NCBI GenBank assembly: GCA_036023115.1
Contig: JAYKKT010000059.1
Span: 3,080,001-3,144,000 of the forward strand
Direction: 5' to 3'
Source of the DNA: Brasenia schreberi
Lineage: Eukaryota; Streptophyta; Magnoliopsida; Nymphaeales; Cabombaceae
DNA: 64,000 bases
The position numbers and the translations under genes were made by a program. Below the pieces are notes generated by a model. The model was given only the letters and a program-made list of their open reading frames with translations, searched no databases and was not told where the DNA came from. Position 1 is the first letter of the stretch; each line of letters begins with the position of its first letter. This document shows positions 22,701 through 28,700 of this stretch, in pieces.

Positions 22701-25700
22701 TCTGGTACAAGAGGTTTGGTGGATGATCTCTTGATTTTCAAGATATATTTTAAACTCATTGGATACAAATTCTCCACTTCTATCAGACCTAAATACCTTG
22801 ATTTCAAAATCAAATTGATTCTTCACAAGGTTAATGGAATGTGACAAAAAATTTTAAAACATTGGATTTTGCTTTTAATAGATATACCCATGTATATTAG
22901 TAAAGTCATCAATAAAGATACATAAAAGGAGACACCTCCTTTTGACATAATGGGTGCAAGACCCCAAATATCCGAGTCTACAATTTTAAAAGGTTTGCTT
23001 GTAACATATATTTTGTTTAGAAATGAAAGATGTTGCATTTTGCCAAGAACAAAGTCTTTGCAACAAAAAAATTCAATATTTTTTTTTCCAATGAGACATT
23101 GATAAAACTTTTAAACATTTAAATGGCCAAGACTTTTGTGCTATAGTTATTCATCATTTGACAAAATATTTGAATGTCCAATATTAAGCATATAATCCAA
23201 TACATAGAGTCCTCTTTCTCTATAGTCACATCCAATCACCTTTTTAGAGAGATGATCATAGGTGAGAAGGTTATAACACAACAATTATATGATATTTGAG
23301 ATACAAAAAGTAATTTTAATTTTAATTTTGAAACACTAAATTTAGGAATTAATTTTGAAGGTTCTCTACTTTGTCAACCTTTAGTTTGGTTTCATTGGTG
23401 GTAAACACACATGATAAAGGTTTTCTTATGCATGAATTTAAAAGTTTTCATTACAAGTCATACAAAACTAAACACTCAAATCAAGTAACCAAGGAGTCAT
23501 ACTTAAATGTTATGGGTGGAAATAGAGCATATCGCACCAATGATTGTTTTCTCCTTAAATTGTGCTTGAAGAAACCTTATTTTTTTCATGGAGAGCAAGA
23601 ATTGAGGAAGAAGAACTTTGTTTCTATCAATGTCACCTTGTTCTTTCATCTTGGGCAATTTGGCCTAATATGTCTGACCTCCTTACAAAAGTAGCAAATA
23701 ACTTTCTTTTTTGTCTCACTTGATCCTTCAATCTTGAAATGTGAAGGTTCATATATCTTAATGTGTACTCTGAGTCTAGATGCGGGTAAGGCAAAATCTT
23801 TTTAAAACCTAACTTTATTAAGTCTTGTTTCTGCCATTTGGAAGTCACCAATAACCTCTTCTTTAGTAGGGAAAAGCTTATGATGTATAAGAGATGATCT
23901 TACCCCTCCAAATTCCTCCTTAAGACTTCTCAAAAATTGATATACGAAGTTTTCATTTTCTTCACATTATCTTTAACTAAAACATTATGTACACTTCTTT
24001 TTATATCCATTTAATTGATTCTAAATATTGGAATAGTCACTATAGAACTCATTAACCCCTTTGTCTCCTTGTCTTAGTGATGATATTTTATCACGTAATG
24101 TCATCCTATGTGCAACATCACTTTCAACATGAGATTAACAAAAAACGCAGCAGATAATAAACACTAGAATATATTAATAAAAAAAAAGAGTAACAATGGA
24201 GATCGGTGGAGGGAGCAGACCTCCAATGGAGCCCCCCCCTCTTTCTCTCTATTTCTTAATCTCTACAACACTTACCCTAATACAGTCTATCAGCCCTTAT
24301 ATAAGAAGTTGTAAAACATAAAATGACCAAAATACCCCTAATATAGAAAATTACCAAAATGCTCTTACCACTTCAGACAATTACAATAATACCCTAAACA
24401 TCAATTTTACTGTCCTAAGACATTATATGTATTAAAAATGACTATAAACTCTTATTCTTCAACACCCCCCTTCAAGTTGAGAGTGAGATACTTCGAACTC
24501 CAAACTTGCCAAAAATTTTCATCTGTCTTCATCATTGGTTTAATCTTCAGCAGCTTCTTTGGCTGCAACATCTTCAAATCAACCTTCCTAGCTGATCATA
24601 TCAAGCAGCATCTCTGGCTGGAACATCAACTCAGCAATCCTGGCTGATCATCTCAAGTAGTGTCTCTGGCTGCAATATAAACTTAGCCTTCCTGGCTAAT
24701 CATCTCAAACAGCATCTCTGGCTGCAACATCCACTCAGCCATCCTAGCTGATCATCTCAAGCAGCATCTCTAGCTGCAACATCAACTCAGTCCTCCTGAC
24801 TGATCATCTCAAGCAGCATCTATGGCTACAACATCAACTCAGCCTTCCTGGCTGATCATCTTCATGACTTTCTTCATCACACGTGCACTAGTAATTTCTT
24901 CAAGACTTCTGTAAAAAAACAACTTGAACAATAGTGAACACATGGATAATACATGACCCTTCTACGGGTGTCGGTTGCTCCCTCTCTCTTTCTTCTTCTC
25001 CATAAAGTGATTTAGCAGCTACACTTAAAAGTCATGTTTCTTCTACTATTGAGAAAGAAAATCTTTTGTGATAGGAGGTACTACTCCACCATACACGCTT
25101 CACACGGCTTTTTCTATGCCCCTTCACATGGTGGTTGCGGCCGGTGTGTTAGTTGGGTGCCCTCTCTCTACCACTCAAATAGCAGAATACAGACATCTGC
25201 TCATACTAGTCGGTCTGTGCCCCTTCACATGGTGACTGCAGCCACTTTTCCAGCCCTCTTAGCTGTTTACTTCAGCAACCCAAGGTCTTAACTTTCATGC
25301 TTCTTGGTGATACTGCCACATTTCATACCATCAAATTCCTCTAGCCTCTTCAATGATTTAATTTTTCATGCATATGTAGTGAAAAAAGACTGATTTTCTG
25401 TATTTTTCTAAATTTTTCAGCCCCTTGGTTATCCATTTTCCAAGCAATCTTCTTCGCTGCAATACGTAGCCTTCTTGATTTGTCATTTTCAACAGCTTCA
25501 TTGCTGCAATAACTCTTCAATTTTGCTTTCATGGTTGTCTTCTCTTTCTTATTTTCTTCATATTGTTTTCTGAACATCTCTCTCTTTCAACACTATTGTC
25601 TCTGAAAAACACACCCTTCACTGGGATTTTCTTGCTATCTTCAATCCTGACTTGAACATGAACACTCTCTGACCATGAACTCCAATGAAACTTATGTTAC

Positions 25701-28700
25701 AAGAAGTGCCTTAGGGTCATAGCTATCTGGATGCTCATTGTAATATATTTTTATAACAATACCAACTCGGACATCATCAAATGTAGGTTTGGGTAAGAAA
25801 TGTGCAGCACATAACCACCTCGACGAGGTGCAGTCTTGATCCTAACACCACGCCTTGAATCATAAAACTAGGAATAATCCTGTGGAAAGAGCTCCCTTTG
25901 TAGTGAAGAGGCTTCCCGCTACTCCCTGTACCTTTTTCACTTATACAAAGAGCTCGGAAATTTTCAACTGTTTTAGGAACAGTTTTACCTAAAAAAGCCA
26001 ATAACAATTTGACCAGCAGGCTTGCCCCCAATTTCCACATCAAAGTAAACTTTGTGAGTTACTTAATTCGAATCCTTTTCAGCCTTTCCCTGAGAGAGCA
26101 GGAAGGATCCAAACAAGAGGATTAAACAGGAGAGTCCAAATGCCGCAGCACCCATCTTAGTTCGTCAATGCCTCTGATCTCTACCAAAATACCACAACCA
26201 AGTAATCAAAAGCAGTCTGAAGTATGAAAGCTAGGTTGCACCAGATCTCCAAACAAATTAATTCCTTCACATTACATTATTGGAGAATCAGAGATTACAT
26301 GATGCTGAAAATTCAGACGGCAGGGTAGGCTTTCACAGTGGCAATTCGCCATTGTAGGAAATGACAACTTTGCTTTTGGGTGTGCCGCTTTGCTTCTATT
26401 TTGTAAACAACATCCATCCCAGACAAAACCTTTCCGAACACAACATGCTTGCCATCCAACCAACTGGTTGTGACAGTAGTGATGAAAAATTGTGATCCAT
26501 TGGTATCTAGACCAGCATTTGCCATAGACAGAAGATCTGGTCCGGCATGTTTTATTTTGAAGTTCTCGTCAGGGAAAGATCTTCCATAGATTGATTCTCC
26601 ACCAATCCCATTTCCATGAGTAAAATCACCACCTGACATCTCACTGCCTATAGACACTCCAGCACTCACCACAAGATTACGAATATGGATGTTAGTGGAT
26701 GGCCGATTATAAGCAATTCCATACTGATCCCAACCACCCTTAATTACAATACCATAATCACTAACGCTTATGTAACAGTTCTCTATGAACACATTCTCAC
26801 ATGAGTATGAATTGGGAAGCCATAACAGCAGGTTGCAGCTATGAGTAAAATCGCAGAAGGTGGAAGACTCCCTCGCTGCTCAGCTTCTCTCCGTGCACAG
26901 CTAACCAGCCTCCTTCGCTGCTTGTCATCCTCTGGGTGAGGAATCCTAAATTTCTTCTTGTCTTTAATACTTGGTGACTTCTTTTCACTGTCTCTAGTAA
27001 AATCTGCGCATAAATTCTCATCTGCACCGTTAGGCGGAGCAGGTGAAGCACCTGTTTCATAGTCCTCTCTTCCAAACATTTCTTCATATAATTTCTTATA
27101 ATCAACATCATTCCTTTTCCATCTTTTTATTTGAGCATCATTATCATAAATTATGTTGACAGCAGAATCAAGAGATCCATCATTAATCTCCTCTATTCTT
27201 TGAGGTTCACCATTTAGATTTTCATCAAGAAAAGAAATCCCATCTTCATAGGTGTCCTCGCCAGATGATCAAAATGATAATGACCCGCTTGAACTACTAT
27301 AGTTAACTTCGTGCAGATGGTCTTTTTCATGTCACCTGCTCACATTGTAATCATCCATGTATTGATCAACTTGATGGTTTCAGCATCTATGCCATATTTG
27401 TCACCAAGATCAGACAAGACTAATGAATTATCGAGGTCATAGATCAGACCATTAAATGTCAATAAACTCGCAAACATTTTCGGCATATTACACAATATTT
27501 GGGAAGGATGGGCCCACCAGTAGGCAATTAACCACCTTCTTTGTCCATCTTTCCGTTCTCTGCAGTCACTTTCTTTATGCAGACGATGGATAACAGTTAC
27601 CCATTTTTCTTTCCAAAAAAAACATGGAGATAATGCTTCCCTTTTTATCTTACTATTCCACCAAATCTGGAAATTAAGTTTCCATAACTAACTGTCTGGT
27701 TTACTTTCCATAAAATCAGGGAATAAAATCTGTAACTGCTATTTTCAGGATTTGAAATTCACAAGAAATAAACTTACCTTTTAAAAAATCATTCATGTGA
27801 AACAGGTGATGGGCCACGGAACAACCAGGCAAAATCAAGAAAGTTTCTTCTAGTGATGATGGGCCACAACCTTGCAGAAAGGAAGGTCAAGCATTCTTTC
27901 TTAAAAAAAGCCATTTCTTTATGCAACACGTGAAGAAGAATGACAATAGCTTCATCAGCAATGAGAACACATCATTCATCATGGATGTCTCAGTGACGAA
28001 CAAATTGCACCAAGTCATGGGCAATCCCCATGTTCCCATGAGAAACAAGTTAGTAATCAGCGATCAGTCTGTGAACACTGACCACATAAATGGCATTTTG
28101 CCACATGCTTCATTTTGCATTGTCGCACAACCAGAAACAGACTTAGACTTTGCTGCATATATCAGACCAATCCAAAGAAGCATCAGTAGAATATCATATG
28201 TTCTTCTGAATTAAACTCAAAGGATGTTTACTCTCAGCAGAGAAATTAATTTTCTCTGCTGAGAGGATAGATACTTTGGTTTGTTGCTCATCACCATAAA
28301 CGTCCTCTTTAATTTTAAGCTTGAACAAATATTGACTGAAAAGAGCATCCTTTATAATCTCTTTTAACCAAGAATCATCGTGCTCTTCATGTTTCAAAAG
28401 GTACAGTTCCTTCACAGAAGATTCCAGTATCTCTCCTGATTCCTGGAAAGCAATAACCCATGTCACGCCCGTATGGTCTTGAATCTGTGCCATAGCCCAA
28501 GATTGGACTTGGTAACCTTCCTACTACATTGCCTGCTGCCTCGACTGTTTCCTTCGCTCTAACAGTCACCCTTTATTTTCCTTCTTTTTTGCTGTGAACG
28601 TAATCAACAAAAGAATCCCTCCTTTTCTATGGATTCTTTTGTTATTACAGAATAAAACAATGAGCCAAAGAATTGAATCAACTTACAATTTTTGACTGAA

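Follow-up and report, generated by a model that had tools for sequence, protein, structure and literature searches.

A rotated cyclophilin cDNA in an LTR retrotransposon of Brasenia schreberi, probably made by template jumping on a linear mRNA

Introduction

Capture of host genes by long terminal repeat (LTR) retrotransposons is known; the order of the jumps that produced such captures is seldom readable. The available part of a review (PMC13317346) describes the maize LTR retroelement Bs1 as carrying transduced segments of ATPase, xylan endohydrolase and glucanase, together with abnormal template switching. Other related systems, as far as the accessible text of each source goes, are LTR-mediated retroposition with LTRs near retrocopies derived from circular RNA (circRNA) (PMC5408686), circRNA-derived pseudogenes such as those of circRFWD2 in mouse (PMC5345220), and chimeric retrogenes made by double template jumps of long interspersed nuclear elements (LINEs) in Magnaporthe and mammals (PMC2104539). 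Here we analyze a 64,000-nt stretch of the Brasenia schreberi genome (C59:3080001-3144000, hereafter the window) containing a non-autonomous LTR retrotransposon that carries a polygalacturonase (PG) cDNA interrupted by a cyclophilin cDNA in circularly permuted order. Each join of this chimera can be assigned base by base because the donor gene, insert-free relatives and other copies are all present in one genome. Among the titles and abstract openings listed in our literature searches, none described a host cDNA in permuted order within an LTR element.

Results

The chimera occupies window positions 25590-26810 and reads on the minus strand from PG into the second half of cyclophilin with its 3' untranslated region (UTR), then into the cyclophilin 5'UTR with the first half, and finally back into PG. 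Its parts are as follows.

26635..26806, minus strand: 5' part of the PG cDNA (GH28 family), matching PG genes L023-L026, whose intron at this place is absent from the element
26184..26634, minus strand: second half of cyclophilin, from the rest of exon 5 to the 3'UTR (exons E5b-E8 of the C73 gene), with the stop codon at 26335-26333
25853..26183, minus strand: cyclophilin 5'UTR and first half, from E1 to the cut in exon 5 (exons E1-E5a of the C73 gene), with the ATG at 26155-26153
25597..25858, minus strand: 3' part of the PG cDNA, matching L018, L019 and L023-L026

Alignment to host genes thus recovers the order that an earlier note on this DNA had stated. It also upholds the shared cut point claimed there, as the two halves abut in exon 5 with nothing lost and at most 3 nt (AGG) present in both. 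A cyclophilin domain is recognized by Pfam in two open reading frames (ORFs) of the window, with E values of 2.6e-24 for the second half and 7e-10. For the 3' PG piece, typed as a read-through piece, the GH28 match (PF00295) has an E value of 1.9e-7, and for the 5' PG piece it is 0.033, below Pfam's cut-off; the 5' part is 79% identical at the protein level to a PG of Victoria cruziana. The ORF of the second half had 7993 protein matches, and among the 120 listed the named ones are nearly all plant cyclophilins, many of them called CYP20-1 or CYP19-4, mostly with 80-87% identity over the cyclophilin part. The captured copy itself contains frameshifts and one stop. We confirmed that the rotated arrangement is real and not an assembly or sequencing artefact because the same order was found again at eight other loci.

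We searched the host genome (1.055 Gb in 92 contigs) for donors and further copies, obtaining 78 matches, scoring 40 of 401 candidates and examining 23 stretches; since all copy numbers come from this one search they are lower bounds. Three cyclophilin genes were found, which we call C73 (L020 and L029), C91 (L021 and L030) and C58 (L022 and L031), as well as four PG genes (L023-L026), all of which have an intron. The C73 gene has eight exons; of the seven introns between them, one interrupts the 3'UTR. The element lacks all seven, as well as the one intron of the PG genes, and the claim that the insert is a spliced cDNA therefore holds. Identity of the first half is 302/316 to C73, 291/315 to C91 and 214/248 to C58, whose true exons 1 and 2 did not turn up in the stretch examined. 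For the second half the corresponding values are 424/451, 415/449 and 409/448. When compared with a C73 mRNA model (830 nt, with ends chosen by us) that codes for an uninterrupted 204-amino-acid cyclophilin, the halves match at 309/328 and 427/442 positions with gaps omitted. Both halves are closest to C73 and so appear to come from one gene; descent from two different paralogues, which the earlier note had offered as grounds for refuting it, is therefore not what the alignments indicate.

The cut falls inside exon 5, and this exon spans the cut in all three cyclophilin genes. An intron at the cut, which had been hinted at by skipped-exon isoforms among 119 cyclophilin proteins (via P0011) and would have made splicing the likely cause, was refuted, exon 5 being continuous in each of the three. 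The element also retains CAG at the splice point in the 3'UTR, three bases that should be gone after clean splicing of C73.

A second cyclophilin cDNA is present at L017 (G000:C80:9297500-9302000), where positions 1903-2591 hold a spliced copy in native order, without the CAG, inside a different LTR element with the primer-binding-site-like sequence TGGTATCAGAGCC. This is apparently an independent capture from the same gene family. We rejected L017 as the cyclophilin donor, since the window copy is farther from it than from C73: BLAST pieces of the window cyclophilin are 85.7 and 88.4% identical to L017 versus 89.7-100% to C73. Identity to C73 is 0.92 and 0.91 for L017, and 0.93-0.97 for the permuted copies.

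The three joins, with microhomologies counted against the host sequences, are the following.

26627..26634, minus strand: junction A, the return to PG, at (A)GGTGGTG common to cyclophilin CAAGGTGGTGAT and host PG TCTGGTGGTGTT
25853..25858, minus strand: junction B, the entry from PG, at TCAAGG common to cyclophilin GATTCAAGGTGG and to GAGCTCAAGGCGTGG of PG gene L023 and element L018
26184..26191, minus strand: seam of 3'UTR to 5'UTR at AATCCTGG, 8 nt, with TATTTTGG in the window copy

At junction A, cyclophilin reads CAA-GGTGGTG-AT, PG reads TCT-GGTGGTG-TT and the element reads TCA-GGTGGTG-AT, giving 7 nt in common. At junction B, the 6 nt in common are seen from PG GAGC-TCAAGG-CGTGG, cyclophilin GAT-TCAAGG-TGG and element GAT-TCAAGG-CGTGG. 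The seam is written out as GGAATCCTGGTAGCG; its donors are the host 3'UTR GTGGAATCCTGGCGATC (GTGG-AATCCTGG-CGATC) and the host 5' end AGAAAATCCTGGTAGCG (GAA-AATCCTGG-TAGCG), and L014 and L016 have AATTCTGGTAGCG there, with AATTCTGG across the seam. The presence of 6, 7 and 8 nt of microhomology at the three joins fits template switching, as proposed in the earlier note. That note had also put both PG junctions in GGTGG-like bases, which is correct for junction A; junction B lies at TCAAGG. Random joints reached the observed lengths in 766 of 400,000 draws for B, 245 of 400,000 for A and 83 of 371,435 for the seam. Furthermore, when the first 60 nt of the mRNA model are compared with its last 200 nt, both ends being our choice, no 8-mer other than AATCCTGG occurs in both. 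AATCCTGG starts 33 nt (C73) or 34 nt (C91) from the first base of a TATA box, a spacing that would place it at the predicted start of the mRNA.

In seven of eight legible copies GGTGGTG is preceded by A, the cyclophilin base (L015 has C), where the four PG genes have T or G, suggesting that copying reached into the TCAAGG entry site. The chimera lacks 38 nt of PG that separate the two PG sites; L018 and L019 both retain these bases, the count being from L018. Two other readings of the joins were discarded: a junction B with up to nine shared nucleotides, drawn from the PG frame at the protein level, as host PG DNA gives six, and a seam of TGGTA plus a 22-nt deletion, drawn from the window copy, as L014 and L016 give AATCCTGG.

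The eight further loci with the chimera (L009-L016) bring the count to at least nine, with L013, L014, L015 and L016 cut or interrupted. Across these eight, the seam is present in all, junction A in seven (not L016) and junction B in seven (not L015). The two halves meet without an intervening base in the window, L009, L010, L011, L013, L014 and L016; L012 has a 2-nt alignment offset and L015 has ~2.8 kb between the aligned halves. Two related elements, L018 (C84) and L019 (C82), contain a sequence that we call X together with the X-PG join, and have an uninterrupted PG without cyclophilin. This indicates that the PG cDNA was already in the element before cyclophilin entered. In L018 a pair of LTRs, oriented alike, is ~81% like those of the window; L019 has one LTR of this kind (90% over 200 nt) plus a second that points the other way. 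Given the joins that the copies have in common, the chimera is most readily seen as a mobile family that would go back to one capture.

Window positions 24130-29115 are a non-autonomous LTR retrotransposon on the minus strand, with two direct LTRs and, just inside them, a primer-binding site (PBS) and a polypurine tract (PPT). Its features beyond the chimera are listed here.

28765..29115, minus strand: 5' LTR, a direct repeat with 24130-24464 (aligned to 28768), with the terminal CAACA placed from other copies
28753..28764, minus strand: PBS TGGTATCAGAGC, directly after the 5' LTR
28194..28520, minus strand: C-terminal fragment of Replication protein A (RPA), a captured host sequence (PF08646, E 9e-18)
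26807..27268, minus strand: sequence X, adjoining PG, with a 161-amino-acid stop-to-stop ORF at 26786-27268 and the same X-PG join in L018 and L019
24543..24861, minus strand: 52-bp tandem repeats of the element, present also in other copies
24465..24479, minus strand: PPT CAACTTGAAGGGGGG, directly before the 3' LTR, with a similar tract in L013, L015 and L016
24130..24464, minus strand: 3' LTR, a direct repeat with the 5' LTR

The earlier note correctly placed cyclophilin within a PG cDNA and overlooked the surrounding retrotransposon, in which, as L018 and L019 indicate, PG already resided. The PBS, which we take to be complementary to initiator tRNA-Met, is the same in L013 and L016 and has one change each in L009 and L015. 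The LTR pair of the window has 305 identical among 335 aligned bases, with 13 more gap columns and a Kimura two-parameter distance of 0.097. LTR-pair identity is 0.906 for L009 (over 160 bases only), 0.935 for L013, 0.914 for L015 and 0.929 for L016; no LTR pair was found for L010, L011, L012 or L014 within the stretches examined. Assuming 7e-9 to 1.3e-8 substitutions per site per year, ages of about 3-7 million years follow for the dated copies. Target-site duplications of 5 bp flank L013 (CTCCT), L015 (GAGAA) and L016 (TGGGC). The LTR of the window copy begins with TA, not TG (ends at 24130 and 29115).

RPA, PG and both cyclophilin halves are all in the sense orientation of the element, and for cyclophilin and PG the picture is that of Bs1-like transduction, with spliced host segments in sense between LTRs. 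Capture by a Helitron or Pack-MULE was rejected, as such captures keep introns and those of cyclophilin and PG are missing. Within the internal frames examined, a subset of the total, Pfam recognized no gag, protease, integrase or reverse transcriptase. Sequence X is without a relative in Pfam, PDB (best E 1.8) or the protein database, its DNA not having been searched alone in the genome. At 26852-26841 X holds GATTTTACTCAT, the same as cyclophilin just 3' of the cut.

The X-PG join at 26806 coincides with the exact start of a PG gene exon (..TTTGCAG|ACTCATGTGAG), as seen with L018, L019, L023 and L024. Since the PG piece starts exactly at an exon start, this older join may owe its origin to splicing of a read-through transcript and not to a template jump. 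At its other end the captured PG reads GAGACA|TGTCTTGCC in L018 and L019 versus GAGACA|ATAGTGTTG in the window and L027, and thus either two different 3' partners were joined to PG or one was replaced.

Regarding the neighbourhood, COQ5-like methyltransferase exons on the minus strand at 20113-35962 flank nested retroelements. Pfam supports one of these exons and the others are presumably COQ5-like by their motifs. The element thus seems to be intronic in this gene. When the outer flanks of the element are joined, one reading frame crosses the insertion point, with stops elsewhere in that frame; it resembles a copia-type gag, and its Pfam match is a weak one to Retrotrans_gag only (E 0.0057). 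A reverse transcriptase frame (RVT_1) at 33227-35119 on the minus strand is probably LINE-like, and there are several partial copies in the window with repeats near 1-2217 and 32046-35080. Finally, a long open frame on the plus strand at 43995-45143 has a prephenate dehydratase domain (PF00800, E 9.5e-50).

Discussion

We consider it likely that the chimera was produced by template jumping on a linear cyclophilin mRNA during reverse transcription of the PG-carrying element, and that it then spread. RNA of a non-autonomous LTR retrotransposon, already containing a spliced PG fragment, would have been under reverse transcription, which copies RNA from 3' to 5'. At TCAAGG in PG the enzyme would have switched from the element RNA to the identical six bases in exon 5 of a spliced cyclophilin mRNA, continued to the predicted 5' end of that mRNA, and jumped to the 3'UTR by means of the shared AATCCTGG. 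Synthesis along the 3' half would have brought it round to where it had come in, and GGTGGTG would have taken it back to the element RNA, with 38 nt of PG passed over. The completed element would then have multiplied. An RNase H cut of a single mRNA molecule at the entry point could have ended copying there, and a return within the entry site is the outcome expected from such a cut. The normal minus-strand strong-stop jump of retroviruses uses the R repeat. The proposed jump at AATCCTGG resembles that transfer, with a chance 8-mer in a host mRNA in place of the R region. Whether a host mRNA with a chance repeat at its 5' end and in its 3'UTR was processed in retrotransposon particles like a small retroviral genome is a broader proposition that we regard as evenly balanced.

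Several observations weigh against this scheme. No target-site repeat is visible around the window copy, whose 3' LTR is short of the final ACA found elsewhere. The mRNA 5' end at AATCCTGG is a predicted one only, and the message extends ~20 nt past the seam site as judged from L017, such that the jump would have landed inside the 3'UTR and not at its very end. Between the cyclophilin mRNA and the X-PG piece of L018, 7-mers are shared at 67 positions. X also matches cyclophilin over a longer run immediately 3' of the cut, 14 nt in L018 and 12 nt in the window, where no joint formed. This 14-nt match was reached in none of 60 shuffles of the L018 piece; it may be due to chance, or it may have helped hold the element RNA and cyclophilin RNA together. 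Microhomology length alone therefore does not set the jump site. Finally, one mRNA molecule and two are not told apart by the sequence.

This last point leads to an explanation with the same three switches made on two cyclophilin mRNA molecules, in which the shared cut would reflect G-rich microhomology near exon 5 and not a cut template. The resulting DNA would be the same, and both PG sites and the cyclophilin site do have 6-7 nt in common there. However, 7-mers are shared at 67 mRNA positions, and two random points on the cyclophilin cDNA lie at most 6 nt apart with a chance of 0.0167, which makes us think this explanation unlikely. The earlier note had favored a circular or dimeric template, that is, a covalently closed or head-to-tail cyclophilin RNA of which one turn was copied. 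One full turn with the entry point equal to the exit point fits such a template, and two reports, in their accessible parts, describe circRNA-derived pseudogenes in mouse that are flanked by LTR sequences (PMC5408686, PMC5345220). The seam nevertheless speaks otherwise, as it joins the 3'UTR of the last exon to the 5'UTR of the first, whereas a back-splice would join internal exon borders; no such back-splice is present, and the other cut is inside exon 5 in all three genes. The seam also contains an 8-nt repeat that ligation does not need, and this favors a jump from one end of a linear mRNA to the other over a circle formed by ligation or back-splicing. No tandem cyclophilin was seen at the loci examined, the genome not having been searched for one. 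We thus regard the circular or dimeric template as very improbable. Slightly less credible still is a capture in native order that was later rotated by DNA recombination within the element. A native-order cyclophilin cDNA does exist in another LTR element, L017, but the window cyclophilin is farther from it than from the C73 gene, and none of the eight other loci has a native-order copy at this PG site.

If jumping on a linear mRNA is the correct explanation, then an end-to-end jump, followed by a stop where RNase H had removed the template, yields permuted retrogenes without circular RNA or tandem DNA. This would be a route to circularly permuted genes, with the testable rule that permuted retrocopies come from mRNAs whose ends have a short repeat in common. 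It also carries the warning that a rotated genomic cDNA alone is no proof of circular RNA.

When compared with known systems, the locus is most like Bs1 in being an LTR element with segments of several host genes. It differs in that the available part of the Bs1 review describes no rotated segment, and in that the cyclophilin-free relatives found here keep the site intact. With the circRFWD2 pseudogenes, as described in the accessible text, it shares a permuted exon order in a genomic cDNA copy and LTR sequences in the flanks; those pseudogenes however contain a back-splice that links internal exons (exon 6 to exon 2), whereas the present seam is of UTR to UTR, at an 8-nt repeat shared by chance, with the cut within an exon. 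As in the chimeric LINE retrogenes, to the extent that their source is available, several transcripts were apparently fused by reverse transcriptase jumps, but here the vehicle is an LTR element and the enzyme would have gone once round a single mRNA before rejoining the template it started from.

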